A stretch of DNA of 64,000 nucleotides. It comes from Myxococcus stipitatus. GTDB taxonomy: Bacteria; Myxococcota; Myxococcia; Myxococcales; Myxococcaceae. Of this stretch, positions 38,117-63,714 are shown one piece after another. The notes under the pieces were generated by a model. It was not told where the DNA came from. It searched no databases and saw only the letters and a program-made list of their open reading frames with translations. How positions within the stretch are numbered: position 1 is the stretch's first letter; every line of letters starts with the position of its first letter. The translations under genes and the position numbers were made by a program. The stretch spans positions 7,686,001 through 7,750,000 of the forward strand of contig NZ_CP147913.1 of assembly GCF_037414475.1 (NCBI RefSeq). The letters run 5' to 3'.

Positions 38117-39724
38117 ATGGGGCCTCTGTTCGCCTACAGCCTTGTGCCGGTCCTCTCGGTGTCGCTGCTCCTGTGTTTCACCGCGGCGCCGCGAGGCCGT
38201 GATGCCCGGGGGCTGACGCTCTACTGTCTCGCCACGGCTGTCTGGAGCGGCGCCTTGCTGTTGATGTGTGTGCCCCAGGCCGTCTGGCTGGGCGAGCGCT
38301 TCGCCGCGACAGGCGCCTTCACCGCCGCCGCCTATCTCCACGTCGCGTTTGATGCCACCCGTCAGCGTTCCTACCGGCTCGTCGTGCTGGCCTATGCGGT
38401 GGCCACCGTCGTCACGCTGGTGGGCGCGCTCTTCCCCGACGCGTTGTATGGCCCCCTGGCGATGAAGCGGGGCCCGTTGTTCTGGCCCATCATCGCGTTG
38501 TCGGTCTCCGCGGCCGGAGTGCCACTGTTGCACCTGGTTCGCGAGTACCGGCGGGAGACTCCCGAGCGAAGGCCGCTGCTCCTGAGCCTGGTGTTCGTGG
38601 GGGTGCTGGCGTACGCGGGTGGGCTCGGCACCGCGCTGTTGTTGTCGGCGGGGTATGCGTTGCCGGTGGGGATGTACCTGGTGCTGGCGGCGCTCCTCGT
38701 ACTGGTCCAGGTCGTCAACTCGCAGCAACCCCCCGGAGAGCGGCGGCTCCTGGAGCGCAGCCTGGTGTATTCGGCGCTGGCGGCCGTGTTGTCCGCGGGC
38801 TTCCTCTTCGGCGTGCTCACGCTGATGGCGGGCAGCGGCCAGCCCTTCCTGATGCAGTACCGGGTGGGCGCGTTCTTCCTCCTGGCCCTGGCGGCGCTGG
38901 CGTTCGAGCCCGTGCGGCAGCGGCTCCAGGAGTGGCTGGGACAGCGGCTGCTCAAGGGGCGGGCCACGGGGACGCAGCTGGTGGCGGCGCTGGCTGAACA
39001 GGAGGCTCGCGCGGACCAGGCGGCCCGGCTGGCGGAGCTGGGGCAGTTCACCTCCGCGGTGGCGCACGAGGTCCGCAATCCGCTGGGCGTGCTGGCCGCG
39101 CACCTGAAGCTGCTGGAGCGTCAGGGCGTGGACGCGGACTCGGTGGCCGCCATGCGCGAGCAGATTGCCCGCGCGGGGCACTTCGTGGAGGAGCTGCTCC
39201 GGTATGGGCGGCCCCGGCCCCTGGAGCTGCGCCCCGTGGAACTCCAGGCGACGGTGGCGCTGGCGTACTCCACCGCGCGTCAGGGATTGGGCGAGCTGTC
39301 CCCCGAGGTGGCCTTCGAGCCTCCTGGCGGCGAACCCGTGACGCTGGAGGCGGACCAGTCCCAGTTGTCGCAGGTGTTTGTGATTGTGCTGGAGAATGCC
39401 TTGCTCGCGCTGCGGGAGGTGCCCACGGCGCGGCTTCGGGTGTCGTGTCTGCGCGAGGCGTCGATGCTCCAGGTCCTCGTGGAGGACAGCGGACCGGGCA
39501 TCGCTCCGGAGCTGCTTCCCCGTTTGTTCCAGCCCTTCGTCACGGGGCGCCGCCGCGAGGGACCCCGCCCGGGGACAGGGCTGGGATTGGCCATCGCGCG
39601 AGGCATCGTCGAACGGCACGGAGGGGCGATGCGCGCCGGGCGCTCCGCGTCACTCGGCGGGGCCTGCTTCGAGGTTCGACTGCCATTGACGCAACCCGCG
39701 CCGCTGTCCGCCGCCGCGTCCTGA
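38117..39724 (+). CDS. Membrane sensor histidine kinase
   Basis: A 535-residue kinase. Residues 1-275 hold about eight hydrophobic segments forming an integral membrane sensor without a large loop. The HisKA region has SAVAHEVRNPLG with H317 as phospho-acceptor; the ATPase domain shows the N-box (VLENALLAL), G1 (EDSGPGIAPELL), F-box (LFQPF) and G2 (GTGLGLAIARGI). No response regulator is adjacent; the next gene, 150 bases on, is the sigma factor of the CHAT module. Joint control with that module is possible but there is no coupling. Confidence 0.88.
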   Translation: MGPLFAYSLVPVLSVSLLLCFTAAPRGRDARGLTLYCLATAVWSGALLLMCVPQAVWLGERFAATGAFTAAAYLHVAFDATRQRSYRLVVLAYAVATVVTLVGALFPDALYGPLAMKRGPLFWPIIALSVSAAGVPLLHLVREYRRETPERRPLLLSLVFVGVLAYAGGLGTALLLSAGYALPVGMYLVLAALLVLVQVVNSQQPPGERRLLERSLVYSALAAVLSAGFLFGVLTLMAGSGQPFLMQYRVGAFFLLALAALAFEPVRQRLQEWLGQRLLKGRATGTQLVAALAEQEARADQAARLAELGQFTSAVAHEVRNPLGVLAAHLKLLERQGVDADSVAAMREQIARAGHFVEELLRYGRPRPLELRPVELQATVALAYSTARQGLGELSPEVAFEPPGGEPVTLEADQSQLSQVFVIVLENALLALREVPTARLRVSCLREASMLQVLVEDSGPGIAPELLPRLFQPFVTGRRREGPRPGTGLGLAIARGIVERHGGAMRAGRSASLGGACFEVRLPLTQPAPLSAAAS

Positions 39725-39874
39725 TGCCCTCTGGGGCAGGGCGGTGTCTCCCCAAGAACACTTTTGTCCTCATGGTTCCCAGGTGTCGCTGGATAACCGT
39801 CGCTGTGAGGAAAAGGGCGGGTCGGCAATAAAGCAGACTTGGCGCGTTCTCTGGGGAAAGGAAGGTGGGGGGCC
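39725..39874 (+). promoter_or_regulatory. Upstream region of sigma-factor module 1, with CGTTCT at 39845-39850
   Basis: CGTTCT lies 24 bases before the sigma-factor ATG, preceded at 16 bases by GGCAA (TCGGCAA, 39822-39828). The flanking AAGCAGACTTGGCG is close to AAGCAGGACCTGGGG before the same hexamer upstream of the small Pro-rich gene near module 2 (59633). This suggests a shared ECF-type promoter, possibly auto-regulated. Confidence 0.4.
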
Positions 39875-40462
39875 ATGAGCGCGAGACCAGGATTGAGGGT
39901 CGTGAAGCCGCCGGGTTGTGCACCCGTCGAGGACTTTGAAGTCTTTGCGCGTCAGTTCCAGCCCGCTTTGTTTGCCATTCTCCGGAAGTCGTGTGCTGGG
40001 ATTGAACACGAGGCCGAGGACCTGGTGCACGATGTATTGCTGCGTGCGCTGCTCCGGTGGGAAGACCTACAGCACTGGGATGCCTTCAAGCAGCGCTGCT
40101 GGTTGGGCCGGGTGGCGAAGAACTGCTTCCTGGACCGGATTCGACGTCGGAAGAGTGAGGCGGACCGGCTCCGGAGCCTGCTCGAGCTCCAGGACGAGGA
40201 GGAAGGGACTGACGCGGCCGCACAGGAGGAACTCTGGGGCCATGTCGGTGAGGAGGACCTGAAGCGGGCGATGGGATTCCTCAGCGTCCGGCTGCGTCAC
40301 ACCTTCGAGCTGTTCCTGCAAGGGATGACCTACGCGCGGATTGCACAGGCGACGGGAGTGCCGCAGGGCACGGTGGGAGCACGGCTGCATCACGCCCGGT
40401 TGGAGTTGCGTGAGTTGTTGAGAGAGACAGCCGAGCGGCGTCGGCGGGAGTGGCGGCGATGA
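39875..40462 (+). CDS. ECF-like sigma-70 family factor, module 1
   Basis: A 195-residue sigma factor. Region 2 spans ~residues 25-90 (FQPALFAILRKSC, EAEDLVHDVLLRALLRW, RVAKNCFLDRIRRRKSE) and region 4 ~140-185 (FELFLQGMTYARIAQATGVP, TVGARLHHARLELRELL). Regions 1 and 3 are missing, as in ECF factors. The ATG at 39875 follows AAAGGAAGGTGGGG. Its TGA overlaps the ATG of the anti-sigma/CHAT gene (ATGA, 40459-40462), the usual arrangement for a sigma factor and its cognate anti-sigma. It is paralogous to the factor at 60128-60724. Confidence 0.9.
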   Translation: MSARPGLRVVKPPGCAPVEDFEVFARQFQPALFAILRKSCAGIEHEAEDLVHDVLLRALLRWEDLQHWDAFKQRCWLGRVAKNCFLDRIRRRKSEADRLRSLLELQDEEEGTDAAAQEELWGHVGEEDLKRAMGFLSVRLRHTFELFLQGMTYARIAQATGVPQGTVGARLHHARLELRELLRETAERRRREWRR

Positions 40463-43461
40463 GCACCGCATGCAAGGACTTGCAGCGTTTTCTAGATGGT
40501 CAGATGAACGCGGGGGAGCAGGGCCGGTTTCGCGAGCACCTGGCGCGATGCCATCACTGTGAGGCGGGTTTCCTGGATGGGCTGCAGTTGGAGTTGCTGG
40601 CGCACAAGGCCTTGGTCCCGGAAGTACAACTGCCCGAGGATTCGCCGCCGCCGAGGCCGCCTCCCCTGGGGCCTGGAGGTTGGAAGTCTTTGCTGTGGAA
40701 GCGGGGCGGGCTGGTGTTGTTGGTCGCGGGCGTCGCGCTGCCCCTTCTCATCCCGAGCCTTGGCCCCTGGGGGGCTGGCTCGATGTCATGGCTCGTCGGG
40801 GATGGGCCTCGCGTGCTCGAGGCGCGCGTGACGTACCCCGCCGTGGATTCGCGCTATCGGCCGTATGTCCCGAACCGGAGTGGGGCCATGTTGGCTCGAG
40901 GCGTGGCGACGGTGCCCATCCATGAGCTGTCGAGGATGGAGGGGCGGGGGGACCTGCACGGCATCGCCACGGCCTATCTGCTTCATGGCGCCCCCCGGCA
41001 AGCCGAGGCCTTCCTGAAGCGGCTGCCCGTATCGGCGGACCGGGACAGTGACCTCGCGTTGCTCGCGTTGGAGGATGCTCGCCAGGGCGGGGGGCCCGTG
41101 GACACGAGCCCCGCGCGGCTGGAAGAGGCACTGGGGCTCATCGATGGGGTGCTGCGCATCGCGCCTCGACATGCCCAGGCGCTGTGGAATCAAGCGCTCG
41201 CGTTGGTGGAGCTGGGGTTGTCGCTTCAAGCGGCGAATTCATTCAGCGAGGTCGCGAAGCTGGGTGAGCCTGGATGGAGCGAGGAGGCCGCGGAGCGGGC
41301 GCGTGTGCTGCGTGAGAACACTCTGGCGCGTGGCCGGGAGTGGAAGGAAGCCCTCGCCGCGACGAAAGACCTGGTGACGGATACCGCCGCGCCGCTGCCC
41401 CTTTCGTTGGCGCGTGCGCACCCCGGCGTCGTCCGGCTGGGTTTCTATGACGCCGTCCGAGCGGCGCCCACGAAGGCGGATGTCCTGCGGCTGGAGCCGC
41501 TCGCGCGGGTGTTGGATGAAGGCTACGGCGGGCAGGTCCTCCAGCGGTGGGTCTCCCATGTGGCGGCGCGGGACTTCACGCGGCGGGGGCCGCTGGCTCG
41601 GGAGTACGCGCGAATCGTGCAGGGCTCGCTTCCTCCTTCGGGAGAGGTGATGGCGCGGCTGCGTGAATCGGGAGAAGAGGACCTCTATCTCGGGGCGCTT
41701 GTGCGGTTGGCCGCCGCGCGCAAGCCCGTGGACGTGGAGGCGCTGGTCCGGTTGGGCAAAGCGTCGGAAGACCCGTGGATGCAACTGCTCGTGGAGATGG
41801 AGCAGGCCAAGGTGGAGCAGCGGGAGGGCCGGTGGTGGGCCGCCGAGCAGCGGCTCCTCGAGTCGCTGGAGACCTGTCAGAAGCAGGGCGTGGTGTATCG
41901 CTGCTTGAGCTTGGAGTTCGCACTCGCGGACCTCTACCTGGAGCTGCACCGTCCGGCGGACGCCTTCCCCCATGCGTGGAACGGGTGGGCCCGAGCGCGG
42001 GAGGCGCTCGAATGGCAATACGAGCAGGGGTTCCTCCAGTTGCTCGCGGACGTGGCGCGCTACCAGCATTCCTTCACGAGTGCTCGGGCGTACCTGGAGG
42101 AGTCCCTGCTGCGAATGCCAGAGAACTGTGCCCAGCGCACGCATGTCCACAGCAACGTGGCGCTGTTGGAGTGGCAGCGGTTTCGCCTGGAGGCCGCGCG
42201 CGAGTCGTTGGAGCTCGCGATGGAATGTGAGCGGCCGCTGGGGCTGACGGGGGCGTTGACGCTGTCGGAGATGGCTCGCTCCATTCCCAGGCAGCATGAC
42301 GCGCAGGTGCTGCGCCGGGCGCTCGCGGACTTGCGCCGCAACGGGGTGTCTCCAGGCCGTGAGGCGCTGCTGCTCTTCATCGAGGGGCAGTTCGCGATGG
42401 AGGAGTCTCGCGACGCGGGCCAGGCGCTCATCCAGCGGAGCTTGTCGATGGCGGAGCGGGAGCCGGACAGCGTGGATGCGCGCAAGGCGCGAGCCTTTGG
42501 CTACTCCACGTTGATTTCAGAAGCGGGGCGCGTGGGCGCCTGGCAGGAGGCCCTGCGATTGATGGGACAGGAGCTGCACCTGGAGCCCGTGCCCACGAGC
42601 TGCCTGCTGGCCGTGTCGGTTCAGCACGAGCGGACCCTGGTGGTCGCGCGAGGGGCCGAAGGCGAGCTGAAGGGTGTCTACTCCACGTCGCGCAAGGAGC
42701 CACTGCGCGACGATGCCTCGGGGTTGGTGCCCCCCTCGCTCGTGAAGGAGCTCGCGGGGTGTCCACACGTGGATGTCCTCACGCGTCCTCCCGTGCATGG
42801 GCTCACTGGGTTGTTGCCGGACTCGATGGCGTGGAGCTATCGCGTGGGGCGTGGCACTCAGCCTCCTGCGTTGGTGGGAGGCCGCTCGAGTCACCTGGTC
42901 ATCACCGAGGTCTCGGGCCCGCCCGCGTTGCGGCTGGCCAAGTTGGGAGCCCTCACGCCTCCGCGAGTGCCGGACCCATGGCGGGTGGAACTCCGGGGCT
43001 CGGAGGCCACGCCGTCGCGGGTGCTCCATGAGATGACGGAGGCTTCCGAGGTGGAGATTCACACGCACGGTCTCTACAGCACGTCCATGTCGGATGCGTC
43101 GATGGTGGTGCTCGCGCCGGACGCGGATGGAAGCTTCGCGTTGACGGCCGACAAGGTCCGCCAGATGCGGCTGACGCGGGCGCCACTCGTGTTGTTGGCC
43201 GCTTGTGGCGCGGCGAGGATGGCGCCTTTTCCGCATGAGTCCTTCAGTCTGCCCATGGCCTTCATCTCGGCGGGCGCGAGCGCGGTGCTGGCCTCGTCCG
43301 TGGAGATTCCCGACACGGCGGGCGCGTTCTTCGAGAAGGTGCGTGAGCGAATCCGTGCGGGAACGCGTCCATCCGCGGCCTTGAGGGACTTGCGTGCCGC
43401 ATGGCGCGAGGAGCATCCGGAAGATGCCCGGTGGCTCACCCACGTCCTCCTGTTCGAGTGA
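40459..43461 (+). CDS. Zinc-finger anti-sigma / TM / TPR / CHAT-protease fusion, module 1
   Basis: A 1000-residue protein. Residues 1-40 form a zinc anti-sigma (ZAS) domain with C5, H27, C31 and C34 (HLARCHHC). After a Pro-rich linker comes one membrane helix (~84-103), then a helical TPR-like region (~165-690; WWAAEQRLLESLETC, RPADAFPHAWNGWARAREAL). The C-terminal ~250 residues are a CHAT domain: VEIHTHG with H870 and LLAACGAARMAPF with C916, the His/Cys pair of caspase-like CHAT peptidases. It overlaps the sigma-factor stop (ATGA). The likely role is to hold the sigma factor at the membrane until the protease part or its sensor changes state. If it has normal ZAS topology, TPR and CHAT face the periplasm. 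Paralogue: 60721-63714. Confidence 0.88.
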   Translation: MSTACKDLQRFLDGQMNAGEQGRFREHLARCHHCEAGFLDGLQLELLAHKALVPEVQLPEDSPPPRPPPLGPGGWKSLLWKRGGLVLLVAGVALPLLIPSLGPWGAGSMSWLVGDGPRVLEARVTYPAVDSRYRPYVPNRSGAMLARGVATVPIHELSRMEGRGDLHGIATAYLLHGAPRQAEAFLKRLPVSADRDSDLALLALEDARQGGGPVDTSPARLEEALGLIDGVLRIAPRHAQALWNQALALVELGLSLQAANSFSEVAKLGEPGWSEEAAERARVLRENTLARGREWKEALAATKDLVTDTAAPLPLSLARAHPGVVRLGFYDAVRAAPTKADVLRLEPLARVLDEGYGGQVLQRWVSHVAARDFTRRGPLAREYARIVQGSLPPSGEVMARLRESGEEDLYLGALVRLAAARKPVDVEALVRLGKASEDPWMQLLVEMEQAKVEQREGRWWAAEQRLLESLETCQKQGVVYRCLSLEFALADLYLELHRPADAFPHAWNGWARAREALEWQYEQGFLQLLADVARYQHSFTSARAYLEESLLRMPENCAQRTHVHSNVALLEWQRFRLEAARESLELAMECERPLGLTGALTLSEMARSIPRQHDAQVLRRALADLRRNGVSPGREALLLFIEGQFAMEESRDAGQALIQRSLSMAEREPDSVDARKARAFGYSTLISEAGRVGAWQEALRLMGQELHLEPVPTSCLLAVSVQHERTLVVARGAEGELKGVYSTSRKEPLRDDASGLVPPSLVKELAGCPHVDVLTRPPVHGLTGLLPDSMAWSYRVGRGTQPPALVGGRSSHLVITEVSGPPALRLAKLGALTPPRVPDPWRVELRGSEATPSRVLHEMTEASEVEIHTHGLYSTSMSDASMVVLAPDADGSFALTADKVRQMRLTRAPLVLLAACGAARMAPFPHESFSLPMAFISAGASAVLASSVEIPDTAGAFFEKVRERIRAGTRPSAALRDLRAAWREEHPEDARWLTHVLLFE

Positions 43462-43627: not shown

Positions 43628-44593
43628 ATGATGCGACCCCCTGTTCCACGCCAATGCCTGCCTGACCTCCATGACGATTCATGGAGTCTGGCCGCCAGTG
43701 ACGTCCTGGAGCGCCGCTCCCGCTACGGGCGCAACGACGTGGCGTCGCGGCCTCGGCGTTCCTTGCTCCAGGCCCTGCCCGAGTCAGCGGGAGACCCGAT
43801 GCTCGGGCTCCTCGTGGGGATGCGCACGCTCTATTCCAGCCTGGGCAGGCTGTCGGAGGGGCTGGGGTTGCTTGGGGCCATCGCTCCGTTGCTTCGCTTG
43901 GACGTCTTCCTGCATCACCGGACCCAGGTGTCCACCGAGGGACTGCGGAGCTGCCTGGCGGCAAGCGCTTGGGTCCTGCGAGAGGGGCATGAAGAGGGCG
44001 TCTCCGCCATGGGCGGGGTGGTGGGCGACCGGGTGCGCGTGGAGGCCGGCTCCTATTGTCCTCTTCCCGTGGATGGCCTCATCGTCCGGGGTGAGGGACT
44101 CCAGGTGGAGGCGTCCTCGTTGACGAGGGAGGCCCTGCCCGTGGGCAATCGGCCCTTGTCGCACCTGCCACCTGGAGAGGCGCCTCCCGTGGCGGGGCGG
44201 CACTGGGGAATGACGGTGGCCGCGGCGCTGTGTGTGGTGCTCGCCGTCGTTCGCTGGCGCCAGGGGGGCGGATGGACGGATGCGCCGTTGAGCGCCGCCA
44301 CGCTTGGCGTGGCCGTCCTGCCCGAGGCGTTTCCCCTGGCGCTCATCCTCTTCCTGGGCGCCAGTGTGTACCGGGTCGCCCGGAGACAGGCTCTGGTCCG
44401 GCGCGCTGTCTCGGTGGAGAGCGCCGTGCGAGTCTCGGTGCCCGTCCACCTGGGAAGGGTTGTCGCCACCCGCCAGCGTGAGACGGCGGTGGTGGAGGAC
44501 GGGAAGGGGCGTCTCCTCACCGCCGTGAAGAGCGCACCGGAGCGGGGCCCCGCCCCTTCACTCACTTCGAGCGTCCGGTCCACATGGCGGTGA
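43628..44593 (+). CDS. Truncated P-type ATPase-like protein without phosphorylation site
   Basis: A 321-residue protein matching the N-terminal third of a P-type cation ATPase. It has an N-domain-like segment (SDVLERRSRYGRNDVASRPR), an actuator-type segment (GDRVRVEAGSYCPLPVDG) and the M4-like AVLPEAFPLALILFLG, where pumps have PEGLP. The TGES loop reads T-R-E-A, and the expected DKTGTLT after VRRAVSVES is missing. The phosphorylation, nucleotide-binding and later membrane domains are absent, so it cannot pump ions. It could be a decayed gene or a retained pseudoenzyme. It overlaps treT by ten bases. Confidence 0.65.
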   Translation: MMRPPVPRQCLPDLHDDSWSLAASDVLERRSRYGRNDVASRPRRSLLQALPESAGDPMLGLLVGMRTLYSSLGRLSEGLGLLGAIAPLLRLDVFLHHRTQVSTEGLRSCLAASAWVLREGHEEGVSAMGGVVGDRVRVEAGSYCPLPVDGLIVRGEGLQVEASSLTREALPVGNRPLSHLPPGEAPPVAGRHWGMTVAAALCVVLAVVRWRQGGGWTDAPLSAATLGVAVLPEAFPLALILFLGASVYRVARRQALVRRAVSVESAVRVSVPVHLGRVVATRQRETAVVEDGKGRLLTAVKSAPERGPAPSLTSSVRSTWR

Positions 44594-59947: not shown

Positions 59948-60127
59948 TCCAGGGGGAGGCAGGGCTCATGCGGATGTCGCCGGGTGGAGGGTCGGCTCCA
60001 CCCGGGGGGCATCCCTGATGTCCGAGGGCCGTCGGAAACCTGCGGGGTTGCGTTGTTTTCTGGACGGCAACCCAAGGATTCCGGGGGGCTGCGTTTCGAG
60101 TGGGCGTGGAAGGAGGACGCGAGGTCG

Positions 60128-60724
60128 ATGAAGGACCATCGCAATGCCTCGGTGAAGCGATTCACCGTGGCCTACAGTGCCGGCGTGGCACACGAAGGCT
60201 TCGAGGAGTTTGCCCAGCGCGTCAGGCCCATGCTCGTGGCCCTGGCGAAGCGTCTGTGTGGCCAGGGTGGTATCGACCCCGAGGACCTGGCGCAGGAAGC
60301 GCTTGTCCGGGCGCTCGTCCACCACGGCAACCTGTCCGTGCAGCCAGAGCCCGTGTACCGGGCCTGGCTGTGCCGGGCGTTGACCAATCACTTCCTGGAC
60401 CAGTGCCGCAAGAGGAGGACAGAGCTGTTGGAGCAGGAGCGCCGGGACATCCGGCTGGTGCGCGAGGACGTGGCATCTCCCGATGCCCACTCCGGAGAGA
60501 TGTGGGAGCGCATCACCGACGCGGACCTGGTGAAGGCTATTTCCCGGCTGCCGAACCCTCGTGTCCGCGAGGCGTTCGAGCTGCACGCCAAGGGCATGCG
60601 GTACCGGGCCATCGCCCAGCAGATGGGTGTACCCGAAGGGACCGTGGGCAGTTGGTTGTTCCAGGCGCGCAAGGAGCTGCGTGAGCTGCTCATGCCGCTG
60701 ACCGATGGGGGAGGGGCGGCATGA
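60128..60724 (+). CDS. ECF-like sigma-70 family factor, module 2
   Basis: A 198-residue sigma factor. Region 2 (LVALAKRLCGQGG, DPEDLAQEALVRALVHHG, AWLCRALTNHFLDQCRKRR) and region 4 (REAFELHAKGMRYRAIAQQM, VPEGTVGSWLFQARKELREL) are clear. AAGGAGG lies upstream of ATG 60128; longer in-frame starts add unrelated residues. Its TGA overlaps the anti-sigma/CHAT start (ATGA, 60721-60724). It is paralogous to, but well diverged from, the factor of module 1. Confidence 0.9.
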   Translation: MKDHRNASVKRFTVAYSAGVAHEGFEEFAQRVRPMLVALAKRLCGQGGIDPEDLAQEALVRALVHHGNLSVQPEPVYRAWLCRALTNHFLDQCRKRRTELLEQERRDIRLVREDVASPDAHSGEMWERITDADLVKAISRLPNPRVREAFELHAKGMRYRAIAQQMGVPEGTVGSWLFQARKELRELLMPLTDGGGAA

Positions 60725-63714
60725 GCCCTCCATGTAATAAATTGTACCTGTTCCTGGATGGCGAATTGCCTCCAGTCGACGAAGAGAACTTCCGCCATCA
60801 CCTGGCCCGCTGCGCGATGTGCGCCTCGGGGCTGCACGAGGCGATGCAGTTGGAGCTCCTGGGCTTCCAGGCGATGCACTCGGAGGAGGAGCTCCCCGTC
60901 GAGGAGGAACTCCCGAGGTTCGAGGAGCGGGTGGCTCGGCCCAGGCCCACCTTGCGTGGACGCCTGCGGGCGCGGGTGCCCGCGTGGATGAGGCGTGGCG
61001 GCGGGTGGGCCGCGGGCGCGGCGGGAATGGCCGCGGCGCTCGTCGTGCTGGTGTTGACCGTGAATGTGGCCGGGAGCACGCCGCCGGAGGTGTGGCTGGC
61101 CCATCCCGCGCATCGTTCGCTGGAGGCGCGGGTGGCCTATGCGCGCGCGGATGGGTACCGGCGCTACGTGCCCATGCGGGCGGGCCCCGAAGCCTCCCTG
61201 GTCACCACGCCGCTGCCGCTGCGCGAGCTGGCGGAGCTGGAGGAGCGGGGGGACCTGCACGGCATCGCCGCGGCGTACCTGGTGCGCAAGGACTTGCGGC
61301 AGGCGTCGGACTTCCTCCGGCGCACGCCCGCGTCGTTGGACCGGGACAGCGACCTGGCCCTCGTCGCGTTGGAGCAGGGGCACCGCGAGGAGGCGCTGGA
61401 GCTGCTGGAGACAGTGCTGCGCAAGTCCCCGGACCATCCTCAGGCGCTGTGGAACCGGGCGCTGGTGTTGAGGGAGATGGGGCTGACGCTCCAGGCGGCG
61501 GAGGCATTCGAGGAGGTGGCCGCGCTGGGTGAGCCGGGCTGGAGCGAGGAGGCACGGATTCGCGCCCTGGCCTTGCGCAGCGAGACGATGCGGCGCTCGC
61601 GAGATTTCCACGACGCCCGGGCGGCGGCGCTGAACCTGGCCACGTTGGATGGGGCGCGGCTTCCATTAGAGGACGCCCGGCGCTTCCCGGGCGTGGTCCG
61701 TCTGCTCTTCTATGACGCGGTGAGGGCGGCGCCCACGCGCGAGGCCGCTCTTCGCCTGTTGCCGCTCGCGGAGGTCCTGGACGACGTGCAGGGGGATTCC
61801 ACCTTGCGCGACACGGTGAACCAGGTAGCCCATGCGGACTTCCAGCGACGGGGCCCGCTGGCGAGCGACTATGCCCGGCTCCTGCGCGGCGAGCTCCCCG
61901 CGCCCGAGGCGTTCCTCGAGACGCTGCGGCGCTCCGGGGAGGACGACCTGTACCTGGGGGCGCTCGTGGCGCGCGACATGGTGGAGCGCCACCTGGACGA
62001 CTTCGAGCGCATCGCCCGGGCGGGAGGCGACGCGTGGCTGACGCTCCTGGCCGAGCGTGAGCTGTCCGTGCGCGAAGAGCACGCGGGGCAGTGGTGGAAG
62101 GCCGAGCAGCGGCTGCGCGCGGCGCTGGCTTCCTGCTCCGGGCGGGGGCTGGCGTACCGCTGCGCGACGCTCCGGCGGAGGCTCGCGGACCTCTTCGTGC
62201 GGCTGCACCGCCCCGCCGACGCTTTGGAGGAGGCGCGCGACGGGTGGCGGCTGACGCGCGAGCTGGGGGAGTGGAACCTGGAGCAGCAGTTCCTCCAGGA
62301 GATGGCGCAGATTGCCCGCTACCGGCAGAGCGCGGCCAGCGCCCGGGCGTACCTTCGCGAGTCGTTGGCGCGCATCCCGGATGACTGCGAGCAGCGCACG
62401 TACGCGCATCGCAACCTGGCCATGGTCGCGTGGGCGGACTTCCGTCCGGACGAGGCCCGGCAGGAACTGGAGCAGGCCACGCGGTGCGGGCGGCCGTTGG
62501 GGATGTCGGGGGCGTGGGTGCTCTCGTATCTGGCCCGCCATGGCGCGCAGGTCCGCGACGAGGACCTGCTGCGGCTCACGCTGGATGAGCTACGGCGGGG
62601 CTCGCGGACTCCCGGCGAACGGGCGCTGCTGACCTTCCTGGAAGGTCAGTTCATGTTGGAGCGGGACCGCGCATCGGGCCGGGCCCTGCTTCATGGCGCC
62701 ATCGACGCGGCTGAGAAGCTCCCGCTGGACGTGGACGCGCGCAAGGCGCGCACCTTCGCTTACGCCGTGCTGATGAGCGACGCGGGCCAGGCGGGCGCGC
62801 AGGAACAGGTGCTCGATTTGATGGGCCAGGCCTTGCGGGTGCCCGTGCCGCGCCGCTGTGTGCTGGCCATGGCCGTGGACCATGAGCGCACCGTGGCCGC
62901 CGTGCGTGACGCGCAGGGGATGCTGGCGGGTGCGTACGAAGAGGGGCGGAGCGCTCCCCTTCATGGCACCGCGGACGGGCTCGTTCCTCCCCGGCTGGTG
63001 ACGGCGCTGCGGGGATGTGAGCACGTGGATGTGCTGGCCCTGCCGCCCGTGCACGGCCTGCCGGGGCTGCTCCCCGTGGAGCAGGCGTGGAGCTACCGCG
63101 TGGGGCGGACGAGGATGCTTCCGGAGGCGCGGCGCCAGGGCGGCCATCACCTGGTCGTGACGGGCGTGGAAGCGCCTTCGTCGCTGGGCCTGGAGACGCT
63201 CCTGCCCCTGGAGTCCCCACGTGTCCCGGACCCGCTTCGCGTGGAGCTGCGGGGCTCATCGGCCACGCCTTCGCGGGTGCTGCGGGAGATGGAGGACGCC
63301 CGCGAGATTGAAATCCACACCCACGGCATCTTCAGCCCGGAGCTGGCGGATGCCTCGCTCGTGGTGCTCGCGCCGGAGGAGGACGGGCGCTATGCGCTCG
63401 CGGCCTCGCAGGTGCGGGAGCAGACGCTGCGCGGAGCCCCCCTGGTGCTGCTCGCCGCTTGTGGAGCGGCCCGCGCCGCGCCGTTCCTCCATGAGTCGGT
63501 GAGCCTGCCGGTGGCCTTCATCGAGGCGGGGGCGCGCACCGTGCTCGCCTCCACGGGGGACATCCCCGACACCGCGGGGCGCTTCTTCGAATCCGTGCGT
63601 GAGCGCATCCGCGCCGGGACGCCTCCTGCCCGGGCCTTGCGTGACGAGCGCCTGGCGTGGCTGGCTCGCGAGCCCTCCGCGCCGTGGCCCTCCCAGGTCC
63701 TCCTCTTCGAGTGA
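60721..63714 (+). CDS. Zinc-finger anti-sigma / TM / TPR / CHAT-protease fusion, module 2
   Basis: A 997-residue paralogue of the module-1 protein along its full length. ZAS ligands C5, H27, C31 and C34 fall at identical positions (HLARCAMC). An acidic then Arg-rich linker precedes the membrane helix (~96-117, AGMAAALVVLVLTVNVAG). The TPR-like region (~130-690) begins with RGDLHGIAAAYLVRKDLRQA, shared with module 1. The CHAT domain has EIEIHTHG with H868 and LLAACGAARAAPF with C914. Both end in VLLFE. It is coupled to sigma factor 2 by an ATGA overlap, and a small Pro/Asp-rich gene follows. Confidence 0.88.
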   Translation: MSPPCNKLYLFLDGELPPVDEENFRHHLARCAMCASGLHEAMQLELLGFQAMHSEEELPVEEELPRFEERVARPRPTLRGRLRARVPAWMRRGGGWAAGAAGMAAALVVLVLTVNVAGSTPPEVWLAHPAHRSLEARVAYARADGYRRYVPMRAGPEASLVTTPLPLRELAELEERGDLHGIAAAYLVRKDLRQASDFLRRTPASLDRDSDLALVALEQGHREEALELLETVLRKSPDHPQALWNRALVLREMGLTLQAAEAFEEVAALGEPGWSEEARIRALALRSETMRRSRDFHDARAAALNLATLDGARLPLEDARRFPGVVRLLFYDAVRAAPTREAALRLLPLAEVLDDVQGDSTLRDTVNQVAHADFQRRGPLASDYARLLRGELPAPEAFLETLRRSGEDDLYLGALVARDMVERHLDDFERIARAGGDAWLTLLAERELSVREEHAGQWWKAEQRLRAALASCSGRGLAYRCATLRRRLADLFVRLHRPADALEEARDGWRLTRELGEWNLEQQFLQEMAQIARYRQSAASARAYLRESLARIPDDCEQRTYAHRNLAMVAWADFRPDEARQELEQATRCGRPLGMSGAWVLSYLARHGAQVRDEDLLRLTLDELRRGSRTPGERALLTFLEGQFMLERDRASGRALLHGAIDAAEKLPLDVDARKARTFAYAVLMSDAGQAGAQEQVLDLMGQALRVPVPRRCVLAMAVDHERTVAAVRDAQGMLAGAYEEGRSAPLHGTADGLVPPRLVTALRGCEHVDVLALPPVHGLPGLLPVEQAWSYRVGRTRMLPEARRQGGHHLVVTGVEAPSSLGLETLLPLESPRVPDPLRVELRGSSATPSRVLREMEDAREIEIHTHGIFSPELADASLVVLAPEEDGRYALAASQVREQTLRGAPLVLLAACGAARAAPFLHESVSLPVAFIEAGARTVLASTGDIPDTAGRFFESVRERIRAGTPPARALRDERLAWLAREPSAPWPSQVLLFE

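Follow-up and report, generated by a model that had tools for sequence, protein, structure and literature searches.

The stretch of DNA analysed here, a window of 64,000 nucleotides from Myxococcus stipitatus (contig NZ_CP147913.1, positions 7,686,001 to 7,750,000 of the forward strand), carries on its + strand two overlapping genes, one for a sigma factor of the extracytoplasmic function (ECF) group and one for a 1000-residue anti-sigma factor whose chain continues into a TPR-like region and a caspase-like CHAT domain. The sigma factor gene (39875..40462, 195 amino acids) begins with the ATG at 39875 and stops with a TGA ending at 40462; a TTG upstream at 39839 is a possible alternative start, and ATG is found at the start position in 10/10 aligned orthologues. 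Its product exceeds the Pfam cut-offs of both Sigma70_r2 (E 1.1e-12) and Sigma70_r4_2 (E 9.7e-10), scores 70.4 bits with the NCBIfam model sigma70-ECF against a cut-off of 42.9, and has SigE, SigH, SigL, SigW and others among its PDB matches. The anti-sigma gene (40459..43461) follows directly, its ATG (40459-40461) sharing bases with the sigma TGA (40460-40462) in an ATGA overlap at 40459..40462; these are the coordinates and the overlapping pair of open reading frames (ORFs) that a sequence-only reading of this DNA had described. By sequence and predicted fold, the two genes are a further pair of the type represented by DdvS and its anti-sigma factor DdvA in Myxococcus xanthus, the same design having already been solved for DdvA.

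Four parts can be told apart in the 1000-residue protein. The zinc-finger anti-sigma (ZAS) domain (residues 3-52; 40465..40614) was assigned from a zf-HC2 match at residues 8-34 that lies slightly below the Pfam cut-off (21.4 versus 22.2 bits), from a match to the structure 8rlz, and from a CHCC zinc motif recurring in relatives, in which Cys5, His27, Cys31 and Cys34 are the likely ligands. A single predicted membrane helix follows (residues 83-101; 40705..40761), placed by hydropathy and by counts of lysine and arginine (K/R) in a region where the AlphaFold2 model has a low predicted local distance difference test score (pLDDT). The next part is a TPR-like helical solenoid (residues 154-705; 40918..42573), to which Pfam gives weak TPR matches below cut-off and which the model renders as helical throughout, with a pLDDT mostly above 90. 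The CHAT domain occupies residues 716-1000 (42604..43458); Pfam CHAT (PF12770) matches residues 845-986 with 60.1 bits against a cut-off of 24, and the His-Cys dyad is present as His870 (codon 43066..43068) and Cys916 (codon 43204..43206). The model as a whole, built from 56 aligned sequences, has a mean pLDDT of 88.2 and a predicted template modelling score of 0.84, and orthologues of the protein reach 85% identity. The joining of all four parts in one chain, as the sequence-only reading had it, is borne out by Pfam, hydropathy, the model and the full-length match to DdvA, and its call of a CHAT fold by the Pfam score together with fold matches to DdvA, craspase and separase.

The match to DdvA extends over the whole chain. 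In a phmmer search of the PDB, 8rot_B (991 residues) matched residues 2-1000 of the window protein with E 9e-146, and the Foldseek entry title gives 8rot as transmembrane anti-sigma factor DdvA. The fragment 8rlz, entitled 'Antisigma factor DdvA', was matched weakly by phmmer (E 0.013), its aligned residues being identical to those of 8rot_B, and at E 2e-15 by a family profile. The predicted model superposes on 8rot_A with a Foldseek E of 2.4e-49 and a Z score of 46.8, at a root-mean-square deviation of 3.8 over 878 aligned residues that are 38% identical. Likeness to DdvA/DdvS (PDB 8rot, 8rw5, 8rlz) thus comprises the full-length domain order, the zinc motif, the single membrane helix, the fold, the His and Cys at matching places, and the sigma gene directly upstream with the start/stop overlap expected of such a pair. 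In L092, a relative's locus whose protein matches 8rot_B over 991/991 residues with 2191 bits, that overlap is TGATG. Other traits that define the type are a ZAS domain that binds its sigma factor and silences it, dimers within the membrane, and dependence on CarD/CarG. The architecture was already known, because structures of DdvA had been deposited; this full-length solved relative rules out a categorically new fusion, and the proposal that a protease domain within an anti-sigma factor is without precedent has to be given up, DdvA being the one studied case that was found of an anti-sigma factor that contains a protease-like domain. DdvS becomes active once DdvA is inactivated, and the external signal is given as unknown (PMC4374960).

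The window protein differs from DdvA in that it is 36-38% identical to it and lies outside its branch, an eight-member group taken from a FastTree tree with long branches, and so it is not an orthologue; the five own-genome copies tested are all 35-39% identical to DdvA. The DdvA locus L092 further holds two CD-NTases, a SAVED-CHAT protein, an E1-E2 and a weak Cmr1 match, none of which was found near the window pair in the PADLOC scan of 10 neighbouring ORFs, the neighbour scans having covered selected large ORFs of the window. PADLOC also gave no match for the window sigma factor, for either of the two window anti-sigma factors (a second pair is described below), or for DdvA itself. An assignment as DdvA orthologue or defence-island regulator was rejected, with 0/10 neighbouring ORFs matching PADLOC and 0 own-genome copies in the DdvA branch. 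In L092 (2536-13756) a CD-NTase and a SAVED-CHAT effector lie immediately before ddvS, so that a second CHAT protein neighbours the CHAT anti-sigma factor.

A family match was found in 33/61 genomes searched (the own genome and 60 relatives), in 27/27 searched genomes of the host genus, own included, with 4-11 matches each, and in 60/116 genomes of the taxonomic class of the host. Part of the matches listed in the genome survey were taken further, and the best 80 of 132 places gave 78 loci; the named hosts among these are Myxococcus, Pyxidicoccus, Corallococcus, Citreicoccus, Hyalangium, Archangium, two Myxococcaceae metagenome-assembled genomes, one from Kofleriaceae, and one record labelled Comamonas. 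The record with this last label (L164, Comamonas sp. KCTC 72670) encodes a full-length protein of the family that is 50% identical, for which a mislabel or a transfer is possible. In the own genome (10.3 Mb) the family is matched six times, in one case incompletely and with a stop codon inside, and all five Pfam CHAT matches there belong to the TPR-CHAT family. A copy at about 3274600-3276600 (L006/L096) matches residues 2-489 only, has an internal TGA and is probably decaying, some 2 kb from a copy that has no ZAS domain.

Two sets of proteins were compared. The first comprised 91 proteins, after removal of 22 of 113 entries (seven short entries from six distinct fragments, and 15 duplicates), and in it L093 was counted as sigma-less, since blast missed a sigma factor that a hidden Markov model later found. 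The main set started from 199 matches, of which 56 were removed (17 shorter than 850 residues and 39 with identical last 800 residues), and a further 14 sigma-less rows, whose start lies less than 700 bases from the end of the sequence, mostly contig ends, were then dropped, reducing 143 to 129, no two of which share the same last 800 residues.

These 129 proteins fall into two classes. Class A (87/129) is sigma-linked, with overlaps of ATGA in 69, GTGA in 10 and TGATG in four, the remaining four not being resolved, and has the zinc motif in 87/87 (position 5 is Cys in 77 and His in 10; His27, Cys31 and Cys34 are found in 87 each). Class B (42/129) has no directly upstream sigma gene within the examined sequence, at least 910 bases, and shows the zinc motif in 0/42; a hydrophobic helix precedes the TPR part in 38/42, none rising above the hydropathy threshold in the other four, and two members (L003, L004) lie in the own genome and 40 elsewhere. 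The ZAS domain and the upstream sigma gene go together, both being present in 87/87 and neither in 42/42. When 128 rows of the TPR-CHAT part were placed on a tree with FastTree, the class switched two times, against a mean of 35 with shuffled labels. Repeated loss of the ZAS domain was considered and rejected: a first tree needed seven changes, and two were needed after the 14 edge-cut sigma-less rows had been dropped. FastTree warned of long branches that meet (L092 with L091; L176 with L180), and support at some deep nodes is low (31); therefore the deep branching order is unsure.

His870 is kept in 129/129 family proteins and Cys916 in 128/129, as had been anticipated for relatives; the exception is the truncated L047, which was excluded from the trees and from the distance correlation below. 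The dyad is found in 42/42 class B proteins, and persists across the two classes where identity to the window protein falls as low as 35%. Because the ZAS-less class keeps the dyad, the TPR-CHAT part seems to do something of its own outside the fusion, and we take this as evidence for an enzyme with a separate task, many other columns being equally conserved (55 are invariant in A1). A literature search found no title on paralogues or on the ZAS-less class, within a coverage that lay outside most subscription journals and the DdvA papers themselves.

Pairing between sigma factor and ZAS domain was approached through sequence distances. In 86 class A pairs the distances between sigma factors correlate at 0.92 with those of the ZAS domain, 0.87 with TPR and 0.85 with CHAT, and ZAS distances correlate within their own chain at 0.78 with TPR and 0.74 with CHAT, all of these values being inflated by shared descent and the ZAS stretch being short. 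Judged by these distances, the ZAS domain has a closer tie to the adjacent sigma factor than to the TPR and CHAT parts of its own protein.

As for topology, hydropathy found an early hydrophobic helix in 67/68 sigma-linked proteins of the first set and a second, later hydrophobic stretch in 3/68, and K/R are more numerous on the N-terminal side of the helix in 59/67, equal in eight and fewer in none. This charge bias suggests a cytoplasmic ZAS domain. Cys473, Cys482, Cys715 and Cys768 are invariant in 129/129 family proteins, and these four extra cysteines are what putative disulfides in an oxidising compartment would give. The charge bias, the extra cysteines and the DdvA precedent together make a periplasmic location of the CHAT domain most likely, and the topology predicted for the window anti-sigma factor, a single membrane helix followed by a periplasmic TPR-CHAT part (fold match residues 103-1000), fits the DdvS/DdvA type. 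If the CHAT domain is periplasmic and the ZAS domain lies across the membrane, CHAT would be unable to reach ZAS, and any self-cut would be of the site-1 type. Hence, of the self-cleaving anti-sigma factor suggested earlier, a site-1 type cut is what may stand, and a direct cut of the ZAS domain by CHAT falls away, the two being placed on opposite sides of the membrane by the charge bias. The juxtamembrane stretch of residues 117-123 (PRVLEAR; 40807..40827) begins 16 and ends 22 residues past the helix, and contains R123 (129/129 family proteins), E121 (128/129) and R118, the latter kept in 87/87 sigma-linked proteins versus 22/42 others. In class B the helix charge is ambiguous, with K/R on the N-terminal side more numerous in 11, equal in four and fewer in seven of 22 helices (first sigma-less set, including L093).

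Between the histidine kinase gene that precedes the pair and the sigma gene lies a promoter-like block, GGCAATAAAGCAGACTTGGCGCGTTCTCTG (39824..39853, + strand), with 21 bases between its end and the start of the sigma gene. In 10 orthologues 22/30 of its columns are invariant, versus 10/120 in the remaining intergenic gap. With up to three mismatches allowed, searches of the window and of the genome each gave a single match to the block, in both cases this same site, and a reversed control gave 0 in the genome; a regulon search by motif was accordingly abandoned, only the pair's own site being matched. By eye, more distant orthologues carry a variant of the block and two paralogue groups show conserved blocks of another kind around a CGTT core, from which we infer separate regulons for the paralogues. 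The block of the window pair is probably an autoregulated ECF promoter, as is suggested by analogy with PddvS, which requires DdvS (PMC4374960).

Several other systems share part of this design. Membrane anti-sigma factors of the RseA/RsiW type generally rely on a separate site-1 protease; they likewise combine a cytoplasmic anti-sigma domain with a membrane helix, and the family profile weakly matches RsiW (5wuq_C, E 0.0015), but they have no TPR-CHAT part. Separase and gingipain R, whose biology is unlike anti-sigma control, are recovered by fold (best Z 18.3 and 17.4), the CHAT part superposing at Z 15-18 with 9-14% sequence identity among the matches listed. The TPR-CHAT protein of craspase, Csx29 of type III-E CRISPR, superposes at Z up to 20.8. 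It differs in being a separate protein, complexed with Cas7-11 and activated by target RNA, whereas in the window protein CHAT is within the anti-sigma chain itself and is predicted to lie across the membrane from the ZAS domain. No match named Csx29 was returned by phmmer of the window protein against the PDB or among the best 60 of 71 family-profile matches, so that the relation to craspase is seen by fold only, and no Cas protein was found among the nine Pfam-scanned and 10 PADLOC-scanned neighbouring ORFs. Csx29 has been tied to an ECF-like sigma factor whose inhibitor is Csx30 (PMC10028731), and proteolytic control involving CHAT-domain neighbours has been proposed for ECF54 sigma factors (PMC8999054).

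The interpretation that we favour, with a probability of about 0.6, is a signalling pair of the DdvS/DdvA type. The ZAS domain would hold the sigma factor at the inner membrane and the periplasmic TPR-CHAT part would sense a signal, upon which the activated CHAT domain would make a caspase-like periplasmic cut in a neighbouring subunit or partner, an RseP-type protease would then cut within the membrane, and the freed sigma factor would activate its own promoter, thereby amplifying itself, and a further regulon. Sequestration and sensing are suggested by homology to DdvA, and we infer the periplasmic cut and all later steps; M50 peptidases are encoded in the genome. The 2024 abstract on DdvA reportedly describes a periplasmic TPR-CHAT part whose His-Cys site is incomplete and faces the dimer interface, and the paper is said to have raised autoproteolysis in trans before RseP.

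A number of points weigh against this interpretation. CHAT cleavage in the window protein is a prediction from sequence and model, and residues 117-123 (R118, E121, R123) as the place of a site-1 type cut are a guess from column conservation. The Pfam CHAT alignment spans only profile positions 125-270 of 289, and the DdvA authors reportedly regard the His-Cys site of DdvA as incomplete, with three helices missing. The dyad is one feature among many conserved columns, and its constancy alone is thus no proof of catalysis; a sigma-linked copy, L047, is truncated to 895 residues and lacks the dyad Cys. The sigma-ZAS correlation is in part shared descent, and the promoter-like block, found once in the genome, yields no regulon by motif.

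The partial CHAT match and the reportedly incomplete active site of DdvA would suit a TPR-CHAT part that is a non-catalytic sensor of a ligand or protein, the first cut being left to a separate DegS-type periplasmic protease that acts after a change in the shape of the dimer. Given that His870 and Cys916 are nearly invariant, and that the dyad persists in all proteins without an anti-sigma domain, we consider such a sensor unlikely, even if RseA is cut in the usual scheme by the separate protease DegS (PMC10028731). Alternatively, CHAT may be active with another protein as its main substrate, the ZAS-less membrane TPR-CHAT proteins cutting or pairing with the anti-sigma versions in trans. All 42 class B proteins keep the dyad, the four cysteines and a juxtamembrane E-x-R, with neither ZAS domain nor upstream sigma gene, and the own genome encodes two of them; against this stand the single case of class A-B linkage, L003 beside the broken L006, seen without a general search, the helix charge that does not fix class B topology, and the four class B proteins with no clear helix by hydropathy. 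We regard the idea as rather improbable. That the fused chain is an artefact, a frame error or a chance fusion of two genes, might be read from the slightly low zf-HC2 score, but it is refuted by the identical part order in 87/87 sigma-linked relatives and in the solved protein, and retains practically no credence.

Should the paralogues work like the favoured DdvS/DdvA-type pair, caspase-like proteolysis would be a general route from envelope to transcription in predatory, multicellular bacteria, beyond phage defence. More speculatively, and a shade less probably than the trans reading above, fruiting myxobacteria might possess a periplasmic caspase-like TPR-CHAT network, in which several anti-sigma versions have their own sigma factor and promoter and the ZAS-less membrane versions serve as site-1 proteases in trans. 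What gives the finding its value is how large the family is, how strictly the dyad is kept and the existence of a ZAS-less class, this class being the freshest lead; the near-invariant dyad, retained without the anti-sigma domain, sharpens the question of CHAT catalysis.

A second pair lies further along the window on the + strand. Its ECF sigma factor, recognised by Pfam, is encoded at 60128..60724, the longest ORF beginning at 59984 and the ATG at 60128, common to aligned relatives, being the likelier start. The second anti-sigma factor (60721..63714, 997 residues) has the same ZAS, membrane helix, TPR and CHAT parts, is 53% identical to the first and shares an ATGA overlap with its sigma gene. 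A different promoter-like block accompanies this pair. Some relatives (L100, L101) have about 1.2 kb between the two pairs, which in the window are 17 kb apart.

Pfam scans of nine neighbouring ORFs identified a histidine kinase, a P-type ATPase fragment, a trehalose synthase (TreT), a PPDK-like enzyme, an M57 peptidase and an ATP synthase subunit, the other three having no match. In the 10 orthologues aligned, the histidine kinase gene (38117..39724) ends just upstream of the sigma gene, and visual inspection of several relatives shows such a gene end at the corresponding place before the second-type pair; a functional link between the kinase and the sigma pair is possible. At 43628-44593, an ORF of 321 residues corresponds to no more than the N-terminal portion of a P-type cation ATPase and is perhaps a decayed gene.

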